Assembly (NCBI RefSeq): GCF_051622035.1
Contig: NC_135356.1
Coordinates: 12,696,079-12,760,078, forward strand
DNA length: 64,000 nucleotides
Reading direction: 5' to 3'
Source of the DNA: Arctopsyche grandis
Lineage: Eukaryota; Arthropoda; Insecta; Trichoptera; Hydropsychidae
In this document: positions 5,816-47,980 of the stretch, piece by piece
Position numbering within the stretch: the stretch's first letter is position 1
How the letters are laid out: each line of letters starts with the position of its first letter
Notes under the pieces: generated by a model
Database searches by the model: none
What the model saw: the letters and a program-made list of their open reading frames with translations, nothing else
Told to the model about the DNA's origin: nothing
Made by a program: the position numbers and the translations under genes

Positions 5816-6976
5816 ATTACTCGATAAATCAATTTCGCACAATGTGAATCACATTGCAAATTTCATTAACTAAACACGAAGCGTGATGAGGAATTTGGTG
5901 AATGACATATGTATCAAATAATGGCGAACGTTAAAATTAAACATCAGTTATTAATATATAACAATAGATAATTACATATAATCAGTGGAGAGATTAATTT
6001 TAATTACTTATTTATGTGATATAACATGTATAACGTGTTCCCAAAAGTCACTGTATCAGAAAAGTAGAACTTAAGATGTCTATTATTCAAAAATATTCAA
6101 TAATACAGACCATTTATATGGAAAATACATACATAACAGTCCAAAAATAAACCTCGACATACATAAGATTGCGCTCAAGTAAGACGAATACTATTTCAAC
6201 GAGTACAATATGAGAAATTAATGCCATAGTACAATATCTCTGATGATAATTCACAAATTGATTTGATTATTTTTATTCATGTAGGTATACATTGAAGATC
6301 ATTGAAATAAGTACATACACGATTATGATTACCCGATGGTTCTATAAGGTGACTAACGAGGCTGTTGTGTTATAGAAATATCAGTAAACCGGCCATTCAC
6401 CATATTGTTATCGCATCCTCTCGTCGTTATTACCGTTCTGTGGTGTATATAATAATAGTAAGTATGAAGACACGTGCCGTTCGGAAAGTGCATTTTGGTT
6501 ATACGATGCTGTATCGTAATCAATGGTACAGTCGCAGCTATAGCAAAAAATGTCGCTGGTGAATATACATCGTCGACAAACAAGTACACTGTACGAGTGT
6601 GCTAAATATGAATATGTGTACAAAATAGGAACATAAACGTTTAAATACTCAAAAGCAAAAGCGAATCTTGGGTATATATCACATACAAGTATCTAATATT
6701 CTTGCACAAATCTAATATTTTAATTTTTTTTTATTTTTTCTTTATATTTTCGTCTACATAAAGATTCTTACATACATTATGTTAAACTTTATATACCTAA
6801 CTACTGAAAAATACTATCGTATTCAAAGCACGAGGAATGCATTTCTTATTTATATCGTAAAATCATCGTAATGTAGATGCGTTTACAAAAGACAAGCTGT
6901 GTGTATGTATAATATATAATGAAATAAAAAGGAATGATTATATTATATTATGAAATCATTTTCGTTAATAATAAAA

Positions 6977-7001
6977 ATGTGTGTGTGTGTGTGTGTGTGT
7001 G
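6977..7001. repeat. (TG)n microsatellite
   Basis: Perfect GT dinucleotide run. Confidence 0.95.
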
Positions 7002-7190
7002 TTATGTAATCTGGTGTGTGCATGTACATATAATATATTATATAAATACATAAATATAATAGTTTCAAGCATTCTTTATAAAAATTGATAAAAAGCATGT
7101 TATCAATATTTGGTGCTGGAAACGTAAATTGCATTATCATCATGAGCCACAATGCAAACCGCCGGATATACCATTCTTCCCCCGCACACG

Positions 7191-10100
7191 TTAACGATAA
7201 AATTTGACCTCTGTCTCGATACAATCCTTCATCAGGTCGTCCAACTCTTGGAGAGTGGACGCGCCCTCTGCGTACTTGTCCGAGAACTCAGCCAGCTCGT
7301 TGACGCACTTGTCCTCCATCGTCTGCAACAGTTCGAGGATATTCTGCAGCTGGCCGGCGCTCTGCTTCGAATGCAGATTATACAGCAGGTGGTGACGGTT
7401 GCGCTGTTGAAGACAAAACATATTCACATAACAAAATCGATGTATCTATGAAAATAAATCAGTAAGTAAAGACAAGATGAAGTAATATTAATGCACTGCA
7501 TTCTCACTCAAACCCGAATTGGTTGGGTTCCACGGTGAAACATCTATGAACAAAACGTTTAACGACACAATGTCTGCAATAGAATGACAACACGAATAAA
7601 TGGTTATGGATGGAATTTTAACGCGACATGATGCTCATGGAAAAAATGATGAAACGACATTATATTCATAAACAAAATTAATTAATGGTTACGAAAAAAA
7701 ATTTTACACGACATAATGTTCACAAACGAAATGGTCACGCAACATTATGTTCACAGACAAAATGATTGCGACATAATGTTCACGGACAAAACGTTCATAC
7801 GTTCAAAACGATTTTTTTTTAACGAAAGGCACAAGAATTCATTAAAACGTGAAGATCTATAAACGTCCTTTGACAAATGAATAAATATTAATCAGATAAG
7901 CCAGTATAACCGAAATTTAATAACAAATAACAAACTTTTCGAGCAGTCAAATAAAAATTTTTATTAAAAAAAATCGTTTTTGAATGTATGAATGTTTTGT
8001 ATGAACATTATGTTGCATAATCATTGTGTCCATAACTATTGAATCATTTTGTCAGTGAACAGTGTCTGTAGCCATTTAGTCGCGAAGTCATTTTATCGTA
8101 GACGTTTTGTCCGTAGAAGTTTCATCGTGACACCAATTGGATTTGGTTATGCAAAGAGGATCCAACTCAAATAAATGAAAATATCTATTTGTACAAAATA
8201 TGTACTTAGTGGTAGTACACTGTTGCTACTTATTTCCCTTAATTAAGATTAAAGCACCAATATATCTAGCTGAACCTATCTTATGCCCAATTTGTTTTGG
8301 ATTTGAGTTTTTATTTATCTCTTTCAACTCCTTCTGGGTCGCTTCATGGATATTTTACCTCTTGAGAACGACCTCTTCAGTAATCTACATATGTTTACAT
8401 ATCTAACTATATCACCTACTATACTTGAATTTTATAACTTTACTTCGATATTATACTATAAAAAGAAGAAAGTCGAAAGCATACTATACAAAATTAAACC
8501 CAATTGTAACATGCATATATTGAAAAATCAAATAAGCATTTACATGCTTATGTATACAGCTGGCAAAAACGCCAATAACGTTACCGTTGGTAACAATTTG
8601 TAAAGTTTATATAAAACGTACAACTAAAAGTCAGAAATATATGTACAGCGATAATATGTGGTTTTATTTCATAAAGGAATATTTAACCAACACTATCAGA
8701 AAGCTTTTAAACACATACGAACATTGAAACCGTGTTAGTGACTAAGGTACATCGAAGGAGACTATTTTGGAGGAGATAAAATACTCATCTTTTAGTAGTG
8801 CGAATTGTGAGATGAAAACACTAAATATGATGACCTTCAGAGTGTGTTTTTTACATGCTATAGTGGTTGATAATAGCACAAATTACCTTAGCTTGTTGAT
8901 TTACCCTCACATACTTATATACACAATGATATACTCACGTCATTGGCGACACTAATGGTGTGATGAGAAATTCTAGCATTCGGAGTAAATACAAATGGCT
9001 TATAAACAGAAACGCTAGGATCCGGAGTTCCGGTGAGCCAGTGAACACTCAAAGCCGACTCGGAGAGGCACGTCATCTAAAAATAAACATACATGGAAAC
9101 AACGTTCCTATGTGGAGAACAAATCCAACAGATATGCAATCACCTGACTCCCTTGAGTGGGGTAATAGTCTTCGACCGTGCGACAAATGTTGTTATCTTT
9201 GTTGCGTAAAATTTTAAACATATTTGCAGTACTAATGGTTTCCGTTGTGTACAATTCGTCGATTAACTTCTCTGCGTCACCGTGATAGTCGTCGACATCA
9301 TCCGCCTTTAAGCACTTTGCGAAATTAAATTCACCCTGGAAACATTTCAATGAGAATGATTTTATTGTATAATCCTTACGTGTGTGTTTGTTAATACGAA
9401 AAGATCTTAAAATACTTGGATGCATATTTAAATAGATTATGTACATATGGTCAGGGTATTCCAGCACACCTCGTAAATCTTATAAAAAGTCTATTTAGAG
9501 ACAATTCTGTGTTAGTAAGGGTAAACAAGTTGCTAGCTTTAAGTCCAAAAAGGTGTGCATCAAGAATATACTTCGTTTTCCATGCTGTTTAATAGGAGGA
9601 ATGGGTAAAAGCATACCCGATGATATTACTCTCATAGCCAACTCGGAAAAGGAGATGGGGGATCTACTCCGTCGTCTGCAACAGGAAAGCAGAATACTTG
9701 GGCTCGAGATGAACAGAGTGAAAACAAAGATTATGATGGTGGATCGAAATGGTCAACTCGTGAGGACAGATGTTTGCTGATCTTGAAGTTGTACACAATT
9801 TAATTTATCTCAGATCAATGCTATCGGATGACGGAGCATGTGAGACTGAATTAAAAAAGGCGGATTGGCAAGGCGCAAAGCTCTATGTCAAAATTGAGCA
9901 AAATTAAAAAAGATCGAGGCATCACTCTGTCTAAGAAAATGCGTCTGGTCTGAGTTTTGTATTTCTATATGGGGTAGATACAGACAGAAAGAGCTCGAGA
10001 AAGGTAGAAAATAGACGCTTTTGATATGTATGTGGTGTTGGAGACGGTTGCTTAGAATCCCTTGGACAGCAAGAAAAACTATGCCTCCATCCTGCAAGAG

Positions 10101-27205: not shown

Positions 27206-30200
27206 CTGAAATAGGGAATAATTCGTAAATCATAATTAATATAATATGTACAATATGGCGCAGTACTTTAACGATATGACAATTTTACCTGTTTATTTGG
27301 AAGTTTTGAATACAAATCTGCTTTGACGGGAATCGTCACAATTAAGGAAGCTCTAGAACCCTTAATTTGAGGCAACGGCATATCTCTAAAAGATATATTA
27401 AAAATCGATATAGAGAGAAACTATGTATTTATAAGAGTAGATTTAGTATTTAATTAAAAGCACAACAAACCGATGATTCCATCTAATCAATTGAAATGAG
27501 ATAGTCTGAAGATCTTCGATGGCTATCACCATGTCGCCCCACATTCCAGTTTCCTTTCCGTGCAACGTCAGCAATCCTTCAAAATAGCACAGCGGACCCA
27601 AACCAGATTTTAGCAAAATTGTAATAACGTCAATATTCGTACTCCACAACCAGCAAAACAATCCTGTGACTAAAGATGTCAACTGAAAAGGTAGAAAAAA
27701 ATAATTAATCAATTTCAAAGTGAAAAATATTGTAACAGAAAAAGGCACGGAAATGCAACATAACAGTTTATGCTAATGCGGATATTAATTTTTTTAACGA
27801 TAAGTTTTTTTCTTTCTTATAGTAGCTGGATTTCTTCCCATAGAAGAATGTTTAAACGTAGCATTTATTTTATTTATGCCATCAATTCTACAACTGAGAA
27901 ATTTCATAATGAAATGTTAGTAAGTCTTCTTCTTCTTCATGTGCTGTGTCCTCCTAGAACGTTGGCAACCAGAACTCTCATCTGTACTCTGCTCGGGTGC
28001 TGAGGCCGAACCACTGCCGAAGATTCTTTAACCATTATGCTTTTCACCGGCCCCAACTGCGTTGGCCAATTATCTTTCCCAGGATAACTAGGCGCGGGAG
28101 ATCGTACTTCTAGTTCCACATCACATATCCAAGATATTTTAATTTGCAACTTTTCACATCTCTGAGCACTTTGACATGTTTTCTCAACAGGGCCAGCACC
28201 TCAGTATTGGTTCTACACAGCATCCATAAGATTATCAGCATCCTTCTGAATGTCTACATCTTAAAAGCCTACAGCTTTTTACACATGGCATCTGTCATGC
28301 TTCTGTCCCATACAGAAGGTCGCTGAAAATGTAACATCATATAAGTCTAAGTCGAAGCGCTATGCTGAGATCCCGTGTGGTTAGAATATTTTTCATTTTT
28401 AAGAATGCAGCTTTTGGTGTTTCTACTCTAGCATGAATTTCCTGGTTACTTTCACACGTTTCGCCCAGATAGCACCCACGATATCTTAAATGATTTATTC
28501 TCTCCACCACGATTTTCAACTTTTAGAGAGTCAATGTATTACGAGTCGACTTACTGAATATCATCCACTTTCTTTTCCTGACATTCGATGTTAGCCCCGC
28601 TCTGGAGCTATCCACAACAATTGCGTCTAGTGTTGCTTGCAAGTCTTTAAAGCTAGTGGCCAGTAGTACAGTGTCAACCGCATACCGAATATTATTAATA
28701 ACCACACCATTGATTGTAATTCCGGAATCCATGTCTTCCAAAGCTTCAGCAATAATATTTTCGGAATACAAATATAACAATAGCGGTGAAAACACACATT
28801 CTTGAGGAACTCCCTTTAAATGTTAGCAAGTCAAAAATCAAAAGTTGAAAATACAATATCGATCTCGACTTTATCACATTCTAACCAGGTTAGTATCACA
28901 TTCTAACCAGGTATTATATTTTCAAAGTTAGAAAGCGGAAATTATATATCTTATAAGTAATCCCGTCCTCGAACGTTAAGACTTACTGCTTGAGAAAAGC
29001 ACACGTCTCGTCGCATCTGAAGAGCAATGGCCTGCTGCAGCTCGTTCTGATCCTGCTTAATACGCAGGACAGCGTGGGCCAACCGTCCACCTTTCAACAG
29101 GCCGTCCATCGCCTGACGGAGCTTCCTCATCGACGGTCGAAGTTCCGCAGCCCAGTCCAGAACATCGGCCAAATTCAACCCTGCAACGATAGACGAAACG
29201 TAATCATAATCAGTACAAATTAATATAATGCATCGATTTTTTTATCATAATTGCAGTCTCGACTTTTAATCAAAATGTATATAATATATACCATCAGTAA
29301 ATCTATTACTTTTCTTCGAAGGAGTTTTTACGACATCGGACATTTGCTTAGTGACATTTACGTCGGAGTTTTCATTCTTATTGTGATTGTCTCCTGGTGT
29401 GTTGGTTACATTCACCGAGTGATTGTTATTTCGCACGTTGGAAACAATGTGGGTGTCCAGTATTAGATTGTTAGAATTGTCTACTGGCTCGTTGGATAAC
29501 TGCAATCGAGAAATCTTTTTTAAATAATCCAATAATAAATATAAACAAAATATATACATATGTAGTTGGTTGCTAGGAAAATATTTCCTGCTTTACCACT
29601 TTTTTAAACTTATAAAAAAAAAGATTTTATTTTCATTTTCCATTTATAATTCAATAAAATGGTTTGTAGCAAAATTCATGTTATATCAACTGAATATGAA
29701 ATTAAATTGACCAAAAAATGTATTTTAAAATGATATTAACTCATTATGGACTGTCTGCTTATATTTCGCAGTAAAAATAATAGGTTTTGTAAATTAAAAA
29801 TAACTCCTAAGCCTTTTAATCAATTAAAACGAAAATTAAAATACAGCTTCTTTACAGTTCTTTTCGATCGTATAAATTATCAGATCAGAATTTCTCAAAC
29901 TGTGGTGATTGCTGTATTCAAATTTTGACAAATTTTATATACATTTCAATATATTTATTTTAATGAAAAATTCGATTTCAGAAGAATCTATGCTACGGGA
30001 GAAAAAACCAGTCAATTTCGATATCTGGGTATTTAAAATTTTTCCAGAACTATATCGATAAATTCCCTGTAAAAATAAGTCAAGCTTTATAAACCATAGA
30101 AATATTTTTAGTTTATCTATGTTATTAAATAATACTTTGTTTTTGTATTAAGTTTGAAGGATTTAAAAACACTCGAGCTGTATTGATAGACTTTAAATGA

Positions 30201-33200
30201 AATTTTATTGAAAACACAGCGTATGTGTTTACAGCCCATAGTGAGTTAATATAAACACGATGAAATTACATTTTCATTGGAAAAAATAAGTTGAAATTAA
30301 AAGAGAAAAAAATCCTAGCCACTTGTTAAAGAAATAAAATTACGTTTTCGTTAGTATTTCCATTGGAAGTGTTGAATATTCTCTGAATGGTATTCAAAGG
30401 TTTTGATTTTTGTCCTCTCAGTCTTACGGCTGGACTTCCACAATGTCCACAAAGAAATTTCACCTATAAGATAAATTGAAGCAATAAATTTTGACCGATT
30501 AACAAATCACGCAGCAAATACATTCAATGATATTGGGTAGCAGAAAATATTGAAAATTGGTTGCATTTTCAAACTGAAAATAGAATCTTATTCTAACATG
30601 ACGACTGCGTAAGAATTATCCACATAAATAATGTAAAATACATATGGTGTTTTTGACTTAGTCATCATTAGTATTGTTGCCGAGACAACCAATTGATTTT
30701 TGTTGGCAATTTTTACTTAATCAAATACATATTTATAAAAAGAGACAATTACTTTTGTATATATTGTACTAGCTGTATTACCCGGCTTCGCTCAGTGTTT
30801 ATAATATAAACCGCTTAAACATGACTAAGCTAATTTAATTAAAAAAAAAAAAAAAATTTAAAAATTTAAAAAAAAAATAAAAAAAAAAATTAAAAAAAAA
30901 TAAAAAAAAAAATCAAAAAAAAAATAAAAAAAAAATCAAAAAAAAATTTAAAAAAATCAAAAAAAAAAAATCAAATTTTTTTTTTTGCCTTCTAGGGCTT
31001 CGCCCTCGGCACCCCCCTGAGCCTTTGCCTTCTAGGGCTTCGCCCCTCCACGCCCCATGAGCAATTGCCGTTTAGGGCTTCGCCCCCATGATCAGTTGCC
31101 TTTTAGGGCTTCGCCCCTCCGCGCCCCCATGATTCAAAGCCGTCTAGGGCTTCGCCCCCCTTAGTTAATGCCTTTTAGGGCTTCGCCCCCCGCGCCCCCA
31201 AGATTAATTGCCGTTTCGGGCTTCGCCCCCCTTAGTTAATGCCTTTTAGGGCTTCGCCCCTCCGCACCCCCATGATTAAATGCCGTCTAGGGCTTCGCCC
31301 CCCCTAGTTAATGCCTTTTAGGGCTTCGCCCCCCGCGCCCCCAAGATTAATTGCCGTTTAGGGCTTCGCCCCCCTTAGTTAATGCCTTTTAGGGCTTCGC
31401 CCCTCCGCGCCCCCACGATTAAATGCCGTCTAAGGCTTCGCCCCCATGATCAGTTGCCTTTTAGGGCTTCGCCCCTCCGCGCCCCCATGATTAATTGCCG
31501 TCTAGGGCTTCGCCCCCCTTAGTTAATGCCTATTAGGGCTTGCGCCCCATGAGGCTGGGCCCCCCGGGCCCCCTTCGGGGCCCCACGGGGCTGCGCCCCA
31601 TGTGGCGCCCCCTTTTGAGCCCCATGGGGCTGCGCCCCATGAGGCTGGGCCCCCCCGGGGCCCCACGGGGCTGCGCCCCTTGTGGCGCCCCCTTTTGAGC
31701 CCCATGGGGCTGCGCCCCATGAGGCTGGGCCCCCCGGGCCCCCTTCGGGGCCCCACGGGGCTGCGCCCCTTGTGGCGCCCCCTTTTGAGCCCCATGGGGC
31801 TGCGCCCCATGAGGCTGGGCCCCCCGGGCCCCCTTCGGGGCCCCACGGGGCTGCGTCCCTTGTGGCGCCCCCTTTTGAGCCCTATGGGGCTGCGCCCCAT
31901 GAGGCTGGGCCCCCCGGGCCCCCTTCGGGGCCCCACGGGGCTGCGCCCCTTGTGGCGCCCCCTTTTGAGCCCCATGGGGCTGCGCCCCATGAGGCTGGGC
32001 CCCCCCGGGGCCCCACGGGGCTGCGCCCCTCGTGGCGCCCCCTTTTGAGCCCCATGGGGCTGCGCCCCATGAGGCTGGGCCCCCCGGGCCCCCCGGGCCC
32101 CCTTCGGGGCCCCACGGGGCTACGCCCCTTGTGGCGCCCCTGGCGGGGCCCCATGAAGCTACTCGCCTTGCGCCCCAATCCATTGAATCCATTGAAACGA
32201 AAAAAACAAATCGGCGCCCATGGATCGAAAAAAAAAAAATCGAATCACGTGTTCGATGACGTCACCGATCTACGGACGACGACGACGAAAACGACGAAAA
32301 CGACGACCAAGGATACATACAAAGTCTCTTTCCAAATTATAGATTAGATTATAATCATATCAAACTTTAGCATCATATGTGAAAATCAAACTATATTTTG
32401 CATATCATAGTTTGGCTAAAGAAAACAAATATTCATACAAAATTAACTGAAGAAAATATGTAGGACATAGCAGAAGAAGAATGAATAATATAAGTCGCTG
32501 CAATATAAGCAATAAATTTACATATAACACACAATCGATTGGCAACGCGCAAAATTAAACATACGCTTAAAACATTTGCTAGAACAAAATGTGTAAAAAT
32601 AAATAATCTGTTTGAAAATGTTACCTTACTGACTAGGCACATTACGCTTGCTTCAATATTTAACTGAGTCAAATCCCAAGGTTCAGGCTCGTCGTTCGGC
32701 TGATAGTAGTTGGCAGAGGGAGAGCACGACATAGCCTGAGCGTCTAGGAACTGCTGAAAAATATATCTCAATATGAAAATACACCGTTGAATGAAACCAT
32801 TTCAAACTAGAAATATTTAGATACCAAGTGATCGTCGCAGGGCGTCGAAGGTGTAGCAAAATCGTCTATATCAGGACTGATCAAATCGCTCAGATTCAAC
32901 TGCAGATTCATCCGCTTCAACATCGACATCATCTACGACAAATATACACACATTATAATCGATGTTTAAAAATGAAAAATTTCATAGAGCGATAATATTT
33001 ACCTTGACGTTTTCCAGCGTGCTCTCGTCGCTCTCGGCAAAGGCCGATGATACTTTGTGGGCGTCGATGAAACAGAGAGCTTCTTCGACCAGTCCCGAGT
33101 CCCACAGCGAGAGCAGTGCTCGCGTTTTGGTGATCATTTGTTCGGCCAACGGCATCATACCCTCAGATTGACGGGATTTAGCTAGCGAGAGCAATTCGCT

Positions 33201-36200
33201 CATTGTGTCGACGACTTCACCGCGCAATTGTTTGATCGCTTGAACTGCATCGTTGGCCATTTGCACTGGATTTGAAGTGCTTATAGGCGCAGACGAGTTT
33301 TTAGCCTGCTGAACCATCCTTTGGAAATAAATTTTAAAAATTAAAACCACAATACTCCTGATATAATTTCCCATATATATTGTTTTTAAATTAATTTGTA
33401 ATTAAAAGAAATAATGGGGGTTAAAAGCATATACAATCTCGGATACGCTGATGATACCACTCTCATAGCCAACTCCGAAAAGGAAATTGAGTTAAAAACT
33501 GCAAAAGCCAAAAAATCTGTAAAAATTGCACATTTTTTAAAAGGTTGTGGCTATTTGCAGGTACTATAGCTGCGAATTATTGGCTATTTGCAGGTACTAT
33601 ATCTGCGACAGGCGCAAAGACTTCTGCGCATGCGCGTCAACTTATAATCCGATTATCATTTAATGTATGCTAGACTTGTTTAATCAATCGTTCATTATAC
33701 ATGAGGCAAATAAATGTCGTACGTTATTATAATAGATTTATATAATCTAGCTAGTTCGCGGCTTGTACTTGTATGTAGGTATTATACATTGTATATGATA
33801 ATAATTTTCTAACAATTAATAATATCAACTAATTTGGATTATATTTTTTACTCTACGTCACTTTACGAGTTCGAACTAAATTTGAAGAGGTTTAAAACAA
33901 AATTTTAACAGTAAACACGCTGACAGTGACAGTTCATGCGCATGCGCAGAAGACTTTGCGCCTGTCGCAGATATAGCACCTGCAAATAGCCAATAATTTG
34001 CAGATTTAGTACCTGCAAATAGCCACAACCTTATTAAAACGCTTATCTAATGTATAATTTTGAAAGAGACTTTGTATGCATGTATGTATGTTTGTTTGGT
34101 TCGTAGAATCCGTGACGTTCAATTTAATAAAAAAAACAAATGGATATTCAAATAAATTTAAATAAAATAAAACTATTCAAATAAATGTTATCAAATGTTT
34201 ACTATTCGATTAGCCATGTTTAAGCGGTTTATATTACAAATACCGAGCGAAGCCGGGTAAAACCACTAGTATCTCATAAACGAGAAAAAGCCAACGAAAA
34301 TCATTGTCATTTTCGAATTTAGTGGGTCAAACTTAGTATAGATTGATTAGTCTCCGTTCCAGTAATTCTTTTTGTTGCTCAGTGTTATTTGTATGAATAT
34401 TACTACCGATTCATAAAGGAAAATCGACAACATAGTTATGTATGTATTCTTAAATATTTGATATTTTTCATATATATTTATACAATACTATTTATATTAT
34501 ATATGAATGTACAATATGTTTTTTTAAGTTGGAAAAGCCAAGCTTTCAACATTGCTATTGATATTATTGCGTCATTTAGTATGGATTGAAGCTGGTAGCA
34601 TTTATTGAGACTTTACTACGTATATACCTATTCAACACAACTCATCGTCACACTTACTGAAATAAGCCACCTTCCTTTCCAGCCTTTTGGCAATGCGCTG
34701 TGAATGCACCGACGGTGATAGTGTCATAGTAGCCAGATTTGTTTAAATTGTAATCGTGGGCCCACATTCTTTGGACGTGAAGGTTTACTGGGATGAATTC
34801 AACAAAGGGATCATCTGAAATGTTTCATTTCAAATATACATACATAGACTGGTAAAAACGAATGTTACCACAATGATTCGTGTATGATTTGGATCATTTT
34901 TGCAGACCCATTTGCTCACCTTTCCGAGAGCTCTTTTTGAATGTTGATTTATGCGCTTTCATGATCGTACTTTCAAGAGCTTTGTTATAATACTTATATA
35001 AGTTATAATGTTTATTTAACAATTCCATTTGGTTTGCCTTCCACGGGAGCTCCATCTCACCCATGCAAAGTACTTCTTGAAGCATCTCTTTCTCGTGCTG
35101 TATCCATATATCACTATCGAAACAAAAAAATCGAAGAATTTATGAGTACAAACAACTTAATAAAAAAAAATATATATTATACTGAATATTTCTATTATTC
35201 ACAGAAGTTCCTGCGGACAGTAGTAACAAAACTTAGACTCGGCCATCAGCTCGTGCACGGTGATCTCACATCCTAAATCTGACTGCAGTCTGTACGTCGA
35301 CTGGCAAACATTATTGAAGAGATAATCAGCCACGTCACTGTGCGAAGGCAGTTTAATTTTTATGTTAAGTGTTATCGGAAGTGACTGCGATCGTCTATGA
35401 CAATAAACCCTCCATGGAGTCACGTCGTTCGGTTCCAAAGACGAGCCCTCTTCTTTGTGTGACGTTTCGAAACTCCAACCGTTGAGTGTCAAAAATCCGA
35501 TCGTTCTCCGATCGCAGTTCTTCAACGCGACCCGAAACCGCTGAGTGACCTGGCAATTGGATCGCATTGAACCGAGGAAGCTTTTTAATTTGCGTATGAT
35601 ACAAATAGTTCAGACAAGCCAACCTGGATTGTCCCGAGTAAAACTGTAGTAGATCCTAACGTGACAGACGTGTTCGAAACAAATTCAGTCATGTCTTTAG
35701 CGGTGATCCGTACTATAGTTTCGCCGTCTAAGCCGTCGCTTTTTCTGAACATGACAGTTTTTACGAATCTAGGATGTCTCGTACTCTGTGGAAAAAAAAA
35801 GTTTCAAGTAAAACAACAACACGTTTCATACAAATCACGTTAAAGAAATACACTCACTTCTACAGCTTCGGTAACAGCATACTGTATCCAAGTGCCGCTA
35901 TTCACCTTGACGTGTATGACCAAAAATGGATTTGGATATCGTTCATAATTATCACACAAAAGATTATCACAGGATAGTGACAATTCGCAAAGTGGCACCT
36001 CATTTAAGTCTGTAAATGGGTTCAAAATCAAATCAAACGTATTCATCATTTTTATACACATTCTCACCCAATTCTGTTTTTATACGATTTTGATAGAACA
36101 GTAAAAACAAAAATAAACAAATCCAGTTATTACACATATCATTTTAGGATTTATTGTGTATATAAGAAACTGCATATACCTTTACGAATCAGAAAAGCAG

Positions 36201-44310: not shown

Positions 44311-45955
44311 TCCCATGACAGCGAATTACTAACACCATGCGGATTTTGCAAATTCTATGTTTAGAGCTATATATTGAAGAGTAGGTTCGTAAAATTAAAA
44401 CAAAGATGTGTTTATAATGATTATACATAGTTTATTTACAATATTAATACAACATATATATATATTATTAATATTTTGTATGTCCACCCTTATTTCGGAG
44501 ACACGATGCTATTCTTTTGGGCATACTCTCGATACAAGACGCAATGGTTGACTTTATCTCAGGATCTCCCTGCCACACAGAAATTATGTTTTGTTTTAGG
44601 ATATTTTTATTGGTACATTGGAGCTTATTTAATTTCATTTTAAGGGTATGCCGGACATTTTCTTTAGGATTTAGATCGGGAGAATTACCGGGCCAGTGAA
44701 GGAGCGGTAAATTGTGGTTGGACATGATTTTTTTCACAATTTTGGCTTTATGGCAGGGTGCAAAAATATTGCATTAAGTGCAGGCGATCCCTTTTGTCAA
44801 TTTTGTTTTGTATAGAGTGCAATAGGGTGTATCGCAATACCGTTATATATTGCGAAGCATTCATCATCCCTTCTACAAAATACAATGGCCCCCGACCTTC
44901 CGCTCTAATTGAGCCCCAAATCATGAGTGACAGCGGGTGTTTCACATTTTTTATGACACAGGACTCATTATACCGCTTGCCGACTCGCCTACGTACGTAT
45001 TGGTGAGTCGGTGTCATCAATTGAATTGACGACTCGTCAGAGAAGTGAACCTTAAAAATGTTAAAAACATCGATTAATTCAATTCATTCAAAAAAAATTA
45101 GACAAATAATTTAATTTCAATTAAATTACCCCTTTCCAATCGTCGAGGGTGAAGTGGCGATGCTCATTAGCCAAATTGAGCCTGGCTTTCTTCATTTTTG
45201 GCGTCAAAAGCGTTTTTTTAAGTAGTTGTCTGCCATTCATCCCCGCGTCTGCGAAACGGCGTTGTATTGTCCGAGTCGATATTTCGGTTCCGCTCCCGTA
45301 AATTTGTCTGGATTTTTTTATTTGTGGCAAACCGATCCTTCTCAACAGTATTTATAATATATCGATCGACTCGAGGACCGTATTTTCGAGTGCCACAACA
45401 ATTCTTACGCTTGGTGACCGTAGGATTTTCACCTCTTTTTAGTTGGGTGCTAATTTTATGCACACTGAAAACTCTAACCCCCTAATCTTTAGCAATATAT
45501 CGTATAGAATACTTCCCAGTATTTAATAATGTGGAAATATTGGCGATTTTCTCCATAGATAAATCTTTATTTCTTCCCATCTAAAAAGGAAAGGGGTTTT
45601 TTTCACAAGCAATTTAAACAAATAATTAAGTCACATTTAAAAAATTTAAACACTTTAACTTACTTCAATGATATCGATAATATACAGGAAAGCAAAAATC
45701 TCTTCAAAACTAACTTTTCTCCCAGTGAAAGCACACGTCTACACCAAACGAATTTCAAAGCCAAACTGTGTATTTGCACTTGTTCGGTTTTTAAACTATT
45801 TGTATAAACACTACTCATCCTATCCTTCTCTAAATACATAGAATAGGATACAATGAATGGTCTACAAAAAAAACCAACCCAAAATGTTACTTAAGACGGC
45901 GCAGGTACACAAAATAGGGTAAATACGCGGGTGTTAGTAATTCGTTGTCATACGA

Positions 45956-46001: not shown

Positions 46002-46543
46002 TTTTATTTTTCTGTTTTTCATAATCAAATGTAGGCCATTGTGGCGCGTTAGGTTCTTCATGTAAAGCCACAATGGTCAAAAATAATATAAATAAAATAA
46101 AATAAAAATATTAGATTAGATAATATTTTTGAAAACTGTTCAAAGAATGAGACTGATACTATTACCGCGTGGGGGATTATGAGATTACAATCTAATATTT
46201 AAAACAATAAAAAATATTTGTATTGATATATTGAAAATATTTACATATTAAACATAAACAGGTATTTAATTTTAATACATACATACTTATCTAAACATAC
46301 TTTTTCACATTTCACACTTTATTTTACTAGTTTTACTTATTTCCTATGTATAATTATAATATATACAAAAACATCCACAATTACATGATCTTACCCAATT
46401 GGAGACTTTCAATTAGTCATTCATATATTTATTTGGCTATGACAATTTAAATTTTAAAACAAAACGACGATTCACTACAGTTAACTCTGGATAGTTTAAG
46501 GGAGGGTCACTAGTGCACACATCCAATTTATATTTTTATGAAA
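45999..46543. other. AT-rich spacer, no gene seen
   Basis: Contains a short hairpin GCCATTGTGGC...GCCACAATGG at about 46033-46076. Otherwise featureless. Confidence 0.5.
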
Positions 46544-47764
46544 TAAAAATGTGTTGAACGATTGGCTGATGTTAGAAAAATTTTTACCACCTTTAATTCA
46601 ATCCATGGATCAAAGAATTATGTCGTGAATGAAACGTTCTAAACACCTATGTCGACTTTTAACCTATTAAAAATAAAGTGCTATGCACGTGTATATTCAA
46701 TATTGATCCAAAATAAAGGTAGTAGAATCCATTATATCATCAAAGACAATTTATCCAGGTGTAGGAAAAGATTTATTAACTTCTTACGTTCTAAGTCTTA
46801 TATAATATCTTAAACATGTGTATTAATGGCAAATTTACAAAACTATGCAAATGCAGATAAAGTAATAAAACAATTAAAAAGTAATTACTTAAATGATCAT
46901 GTGAGAAAGTTTTTGAATTTTTTCTACCATTTTCATATTAAGGTTAAAAATAAAAATGTGTTGAACGATTGGCTGATGTTAGAAAAATTTTTACCACCTT
47001 TAATTCAATCCATGGATCAAAGAATTATGTCGTGAATGAAACATTCTAAACACCTATGACGACTTTTAACCTATTCAAAATAAAGTGCTATGCACGTGTA
47101 TATTCAATATTGATCCAAAATAAAGGTAGTAGAATCCATTATATCATCAAAGATAATTTATCCAGGTGTAGGAAAAGATTTATTAACTTCTTACGTTCTA
47201 AGTCTTATATAATATCTTAAACATGTGTATTAATGACAAATTTACAAAACTATGCAAATGCAGATAAAGTAATAAAACAATTAAAAAGTAATTACTTAAA
47301 TGATCATGTGAGAAAGTTTTTGAATTTTTTCTACCATTTTCATATTAAGGTTAAAAATAAAAATGTGTTGAACGATTGGCTGATGTTAGAACAATTTTTA
47401 CCACCTTTAATTCAATCCATGGATCAAAGAATTATGTCGTGAATGAAACATTCTAAACACCTATGACGACTTTTAACATATTAAAAATAAAGTGCTATGC
47501 ACGTGTATATTCAATATTGATCCAAAATAAAGGTAGTAGAATCCATTATATCATCAAAGATAATTTATCCAGGTGTAGGAAAAGATTTATTAACTTCTTA
47601 CGTTCTAAGTCTTATATAATATCTTAAACATGTGTATTAATAGCAAATTTACAAAACTATGCAAATGCAGATAAAGTAATAAAACAATTAAAAAGTAATT
47701 ACTTAAATGATCATGTGAGAAAGTTTTTGAATTTTTTCTACCATTTTCATATTAAGGTTAAAAA
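46544..47764 (+). repeat. Three tandem 407-bp units carrying a pogo/Tigger transposase piece
   Basis: Unit starts at 46544, 46951 and 47358, exactly 407 apart. The units are nearly identical (few base changes, e.g. MLEKFLPP versus MLEQFLPP). Each holds a frame with KSNYLNDHVRKFLNFFYHFH and, across the junction, LPPLIQSMDQRIMS, the box preceding the last catalytic region of pogo/Tigger transposases. Confidence 0.93.
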
Positions 47765-47980
47765 TAAGAAAACATTATACATATACATATATCATACTAA
47801 CAACAAAAGAATTTTTAAAGGAAATATTCTCAAAAACACAAAAAATCACAGATTTTCTCAATAAATATTTAATAAACCTGTTGTCTGTTGCATTATTAAA
47901 CAAAAAACAAAAATCAATAATTAAGATTATCCGTGCCCCCTACCGACTACTTAGCCCGGATAATCGGGGGTACACTGTAT
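47765..47980 (+). mobile_element. Tigger remnant right end
   Basis: The end CGGATAATCGGGGGTACACTG matches, in the same orientation, the end of the second Tigger remnant near 59820 (CGGATAATCGAGAGTACACTG), so the array at 46544-47764 arose inside a Tigger copy. Confidence 0.75.

Follow-up and report, generated by a model that had tools for sequence, protein, structure and literature searches.

The window, a 64,000-nucleotide stretch of the Arctopsyche grandis genome, contains a GC-rich tandem array of hairpin-forming units, about 1.17 kb long, in a predicted AT-rich intron, in agreement with the preliminary description of this DNA. The GC content was 68% between positions 31001 and 32000, whereas the remaining 1-kb steps of the window ranged from 24% to 50%. 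The span initially given for the array, 30986..32165, does enclose it, but its end takes in about 11 bp beyond the last unit. The predicted exons 32630-32753 and 28987-29180 join in frame across the 3449-bp intron. The host gene had been named INPP4, a name not borne out by our searches, as Pfam returned nothing for the exon frames 32982-33401 and 35199-35609 and PDB nothing for 32982-33401. The features of the locus are collected in Table 1. The element described below is a passenger of the intron, and its minus strand is the sense strand of the gene. Neither a tRNA (bacterial code) nor an Rfam family at the gathering score was found in the window. Elsewhere in the window, a 407-bp unit is present in three tandem copies with 98% matches (46541-47767), and two minus-strand frames, 28523-28822 and 44748-45083, gave matches to RVT_1 and DDE_3, respectively, both under the Pfam cut-off.

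Table 1. Features of the intron, of the element inside it and of a short relative nearby (positions in the window)
Feature	Positions	Strand	Remarks
Predicted exon just upstream of the intron	32630..32753	-	outermost of five possible acceptors leaving the frame open
Predicted host intron holding the Helitron, 3449 bp	29181..32629	-	bounded by GT and AG splice sites in fitting phases
Predicted exon immediately following the intron	28987..29180	-	
Complete non-autonomous Helitron, 1580 bp	30769..32348	-	5'-TC at 32348, CTAG-3' at 30769
Helitron 5' terminus TCTAATCTATAATTTGGAAAGAGACTTTGTATG	32316..32348	-	
5' subterminal region	32155..32315	-	contains a GTC/TTC microsatellite; CCGTAGATCGGTGACGTCATCGAACACGTGATTCGA stretch mostly conserved
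Array Part II	31536..32154	-	seven units; 11 GCA-loop cores and one GTA-loop core
Array Part I	30987..31535	-	31/40-41-bp half-units, 15 GAA-loop hairpins, then start of the junction half-unit
T-rich tract (A-rich on the plus strand)	30835..30986	-	differs from copy to copy
Helitron 3' terminal region with GAGCGAAGCCGGGTAATACAGCTAG	30769..30834	-	retroposon-like head of the preliminary description
224-bp short relative from the same Helitron group, without array	34046..34269	+	TC...CTAG between A and T

The array is composed of two blocks. Part I consists of 15 half-units of 31 or 40-41 bp, which alternate from the third onwards, and every half-unit holds GGGCTTCGCCC (in one case AGGCTTCGCCC). 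Part II consists of seven units of 90, 80, 90, 90, 90, 80, and 99 bp, lengths that depend on the choice of borders, since other borders give 91 bp for the first unit and 89 bp for the last. The length steps sit in a GGGCCCCC block, from which the 80-bp units lack 10 bp and in which the 99-bp unit has an additional 9-bp GGGCCCCCC; the earlier idea of slippage in this block fits these steps. TRF gave periods of 72 and 143 bp for Part I and of 90, 170, and 260 bp for Part II, indicating that higher-order repeats exist. With at most one mismatch allowed, GGGCTTCGCCC was found 27 times in the window compared with a mean of 0.10 in shuffled sequences, and all occurrences lie between 30995 and 32127, inside the array. 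Part I and Part II have GGGCTKCGCCCC plus neighbouring letters in common (local score of 20; shuffle mean of 12.4, with 3 of 300 shuffles reaching the score), and the junction half-unit combines a Part I flank with a Part II-like hairpin. It may be that Part II arose from a Part I-like unit, a comparison that is suggestive only.

We then considered the loops of the hairpins. GGGCTTCGCCC folds into a 4-bp GGGC/GCCC stem with a 3-nt loop. The hairpins had been described as carrying UUCG tetraloops, which does not apply to GGGCTTCGCCC: GGGCUUCGCCC likewise folds with a 3-nt loop, so that no C(UUCG)G with a closing C-G pair is formed. The description does apply to CTTCGG, which fits the cUUCGg motif and occurs five times in the array, in five of the seven Part II units. 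UUCG tetraloops had also been expected in the pre-mRNA; with the gene's predicted exons located on the minus strand, its transcript would instead carry mainly GAA and GCA loops. The minus-strand cores of the array are GCGAAGC (15 occurrences), GCGCAGC (11), and GCGTAGC (1). Thus, 27 GCGNAGC cores are present on that strand and none on the plus strand, compared with a mean of 0.6 in 500 shuffles, although the repeats are not independent and the comparison shows only that the units keep the core. Most loops on the strand that a Helitron would transfer are therefore GAA or GCA, that is, of the GNA type. The folding of one 72-bp stretch of Part I was no better than that of shuffled sequences (z of 0.16 and 0.56), whereas one Part II unit folded somewhat better than its shuffles (z of -1.65 and -2.87).

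The array very probably forms the tandemly repeated interior of a Helitron that is young, non-autonomous, and present in many copies. Its surroundings on the minus strand read, in order, A, TCTAATCTATAATTTGGAAAGAGACTTTGTATG, the GTC/TTC microsatellite, Part II, Part I, the T-rich tract, GAGCGAAGCCGGGTAATACAGCTAG, and T, the outer A and T (the complements of positions 32349 and 30768) being the two sides of the insertion site. Both ends of this 1580-bp element recur 1.7-3.5 kb away, in the 224-bp copy that has no array; the two copies agree at 87% over the outer 68 bp and at 92% over a 37-bp stretch of the opposite end. Both window copies have TC...CTAG ends, and no target duplication was seen when their flanks were read by eye. 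The hallmarks reported for insect Helitrons are a 5'-TC, a 3'-CTRR or CTAG, a stem-loop at the 3' end, and flanking A and T (PMC6544945, PMC4344730), and published descriptions of Helitrons include a palindrome of 16-20 bp close to the 3' end. The TC/CTAG ends and insertion between A and T without target duplication are all found here, while the 3' stem-loop is weak. At the 3' end, GAGCGAAGCCGGGTAA contains a GCGAAGC core and is followed a few bases further by CTAG, and in the long copy the predicted DNA fold of this hairpin has a 2-bp stem only. Derivation of the array from this 3' hairpin was also considered and is not claimed, as the shared GCGAAGCC was no better than shuffles (703 of 1000 for the long 3' end and 452 of 1000 for the short one). 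A repeat-in-repeat origin had been proposed for the array, and its position inside a Helitron is in line with that proposal.

We searched the genome from which the window comes (475.7 Mb in 189 contigs). A genome-wide search with the repeat unit had been suggested earlier; performed with Part II as the query, it revealed many dispersed copies, with 120 matching stretches in the 40 scored of 914 candidates. Pairing of strict end patterns yielded 31 complete copies, 30 with the array and one, at 34046-34269, without it. They comprise 27 elements (26 long and one short) from 20 fetched regions and the window, and four long ones from four further regions; the first 20 regions and the four further ones were chosen by similarity to Part II, and this first sample is biased. 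Unpaired ends (e.g., in L018, L023, L026, L027, and L032) were left outside the 27 elements, and L007, which is the window copy, and L008-L014, which lie inside L015-L021, were not counted again.

The patterns included TC and CTAG, and the flanking letters were not part of them. All 25 outer 5' flanks end in A (21/21 among the 27 elements and 4/4 among the four additional ones), and all 21 outer 3' flanks begin with T (17/17 and 4/4). A preference for ATA at seven to nine bases past the cut, on its downstream side, is also suggested by the insertion sites, since this triplet was present in 13 of 17 outer 3' flanks compared with 4.0% of the A^T sites of the window (8.0% when matched for AT content). 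A search with the 66-bp 3' end as the query gave 532 candidates; all 40 that were scored are 100% identical to it and lie on the C1 contig, plus strand, between 1.6 and 26.2 Mb. Every third of these 40 was taken and 500 bp were read, giving 14 copies picked by the 3' end only, from one strand of one contig; Part I hairpins were present in all 14. To the extent that the copies were read, this young subfamily, present in many copies, has the array as a fixed component.

Several copies are nearly identical. L016.1 and L017.1, which lie on contigs C9 and C8 and have different flanks, show a single base difference over 2316 bases and no gap; L021.1 and L027.1 are free of mismatches, with one 21-bp gap; and L054 and L055, on C8 and C7, have zero mismatches and 3 gap bases over about 1.84 kb. 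That copies on different contigs differ by as little as one base in 2316 bp indicates that the array moves within a recently active element.

The copies differ mostly in the number of their units. Among the 26 long copies, lengths span 1106-2885 bp, and the numbers of exact hairpins per copy are 10-28 for the GAA loop and 2-33 for the GCA loop. In 14 compared pairs of copies, gaps of 90, 143, 170, and 286 bp correspond to unit or multi-unit sizes, and other gaps measure 15, 21, 37, 39, 61, 71, 229, 339, and 1090 bp, in addition to small ones. The joint between Part II and Part I, with hairpin spacings of 84, 41, 31, 41, 31, and 40, is constant in 24 of the 26 long copies, while unit numbers vary on either side of it, as expected from hairpin slippage or unequal recombination.

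Short array-less relatives were found with looser patterns in four of the same 20 regions (L016, 219 bp; L020, 215 bp; L023, 199 bp; L032, 221 bp) and were kept out of the 31 strict copies. Their 3' flank is T in four of four and their 5' flank A in three of four, with T before TC in L023. The ends of these four and of the short window copy differ from those of the long copies.

Work on Helraiser indicates that a single donor strand is used, that the 3' hairpin is a termination signal, and that the circles contain a TC-CTAG junction; lagging-strand synthesis has been proposed to take place on the strand that is peeled off (PMC4778049, PMC5876387). By analogy with such published Helitron work, a Rep/Hel protein made elsewhere in the genome would nick the 5'-TC end of the element on the minus strand. 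The peeled-off minus strand would be joined at CTAG, and the whole element, including the array, would be copied to a new A^T site. Growth and stepwise change of the array might take place by slippage, when the peeled-off or replicating strand folds at the hairpins, or by unequal recombination. The folding results speak against hairpin slippage in so far as the Part I stretch did not exceed its shuffles and the Part II unit did so only somewhat. An autonomous partner was sought at 16 Helitron_like_N loci with 1.5-kb flanks, and no end match better than an E value of 0.019 was obtained. Two 9.9-kb regions gave only weak matches of the T-rich and AT-rich parts of the element (best E value of 3e-4, 64% identity). 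Among L036-L051, in the interval G000:C3:20710636-20738225, Helitron_like_N matches recur every 9032 bp exactly, four times, and form a tandem block of a larger unit. In L052, a 377-aa open frame starting with a short repeated peptide (6233-7363, minus strand) lies beside an 836-aa frame with a Helitron_like_N match.

Some elements adjoin one another directly. In 6 of the 27 elements, the 5' TC directly follows the CTAG of another copy, and among the 14 copies selected through the 3' end, four have a direct CTAG|TC joint. Such joints were observed in L015, L016, L018, L020, L021, L026, and L030, and the arrays differ in the five pairs tested. Adjacent copies might be rolling-circle concatemers of one element, with expansion of the array in the process, and for plants and bats, head-to-tail junctions and tandem Helitron arrays have indeed been reported. 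L020.1 has its closest relative within its own cluster, namely L020.3, which is located two places on and is not its neighbour. However, in none of the five neighbour pairs tested was either partner the closest relative of the other, the ranks being 6 to 25 of 25. Repeated insertion at a resident A^TC site is therefore likelier than concatemers of one circle, which we regard as unlikely while giving that possibility some weight.

The hairpin array could also be a working part of the Helitron. Its GNA mini-hairpins might protect the transferred strand, serve as primers or start sites for second-strand synthesis, or make the replication machinery pause, and they may have helped the array-bearing subfamily to spread. 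Second-strand start sites on the transferred strand can be likened to the single-strand origins of rolling-circle plasmids. In favor of such a role, the GCGNAGC cores of the window array all lie on the minus strand, all 30 long copies contain the array in one and the same orientation, and it was also present in each of the copies picked by their end only. Furthermore, GNA and GNNA loops on at least two G-C pairs have been reported to form unusually stable DNA hairpins, GCGAAGC melting at 78 C (PMC4686876). Under standard DNA parameters, in which GNA stability is not visible, the two strands have the same energy. Among hairpin variants within two mismatches in the 26 long copies, 12 hairpins have a change at the first loop base, 13 have T or G at the free middle position, and none has a change at the last base. 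Changes of the first base are thus about as frequent as those of the free one to T or G, and no constraint on the GNA loop is visible across these copies. In addition, a GGGGCCCAGCCTC module is present in every Part II unit (210 occurrences over the 26 copies); it could pair with a CCA loop, which is not of the GNA type. The array may simply ride along, and relatives without it exist. Altogether, a working role appears improbable.

The same DNA had been read as following a retroposon-like head with an A-tract. A SINE or RTE-like retroposon with such a tract, spread by reverse transcription and with an array grown in its middle, would account for the A-rich tract adjoining the head and for the SINE-like size of the short copy. 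However, the head is the 3' end of the Helitron read backwards, and the A-tract is its T-rich tract. The TC...CTAG ends, the insertion between A and T in every outer flank, the lack of a visible target duplication at the two window copies, and the direct CTAG|TC junctions between neighbours all go against a retroposon, which is very unlikely.

Contamination by bacterial or symbiont DNA, or a misassembly, was the other explanation offered previously and would fit the sharp jump in GC content. It is ruled against by the recurrence of the array at many places of the same genome, on many contigs and with different flanks. A Helitron carrying the array at many places indicates that the array is genuine DNA of this organism. 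A plasmid blastn search with Part I and Part II, run with the low-complexity filter on, gave no match. In viral and prokaryote contigs, the array patterns gave no hit or single k-mers; GGGCTTCGCCC is absent from the four viral loci with k-mer hits, and no array was found in the 401 bases around each of two prokaryote hits. We consider a foreign or artifactual origin extremely improbable; the unit count of the window copy could still be off. Selection of the array in this intron as a host element, for its RNA structure, is just as hard to credit: it does lie in a predicted intron and would be transcribed, but it is also found at many other sites, moving with the Helitron.

We thus return to an internal tandem repeat of a young Helitron. 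The weak 3' hairpin, the lack of a partner among the loci searched, the exceptional flank of L023, the loop changes, and the biased sample leave the flank rule and the near-identical dispersed copies untouched.

Helitrons with internal arrays are known, and internal tandem repeats are described as frequent in Helitron and Helentron elements (PMC12628747). Among the closest are the Hel-2 non-autonomous Helitrons of Lepidoptera and insect viruses, which likewise have a 5'-TC, a 3'-CTAG, A/T flanks, a 3' stem-loop, and internal tandem arrays (PMC4344730). Compared by description with Hel-2, the array reported here occupies most of the long element and consists of two GC-rich blocks that form hairpins. 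Helitron-2 of Drosophila virilis also has tandem repeats inside a rolling-circle transposon, although its units are longer (153-154 bp) and no GNA-hairpin feature is described in the cited part of that study (PMC3833285). Helraiser, a bat Helitron, shares the TC...CTAG ends, the TC-CTAG circles, and the 3' hairpin termination signal, but it is a reconstructed element with its own transposase, for which no internal array is described in the sections cited (PMC4778049, PMC5876387). Set against the general literature, the present element is a new example, marked by its GC-rich hairpin make-up. A mobile element with a variable-number repeat inside is also represented by the SVA composite retroposons of hominoids. 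SVA is a retroposon and not a Helitron, and no relation to the present element is claimed.

GC islands in AT-rich introns thus need not be contamination, and the length of such an array differs between copies. A young, multi-copy Helitron subfamily that combines near-identical copies with array-less relatives in one genome offers a setting in which the gain, carriage, and resizing of a GC-rich minisatellite by a transposon can be followed. This subfamily provides a system for testing whether hairpins of the transferred strand matter to Helitron movement.
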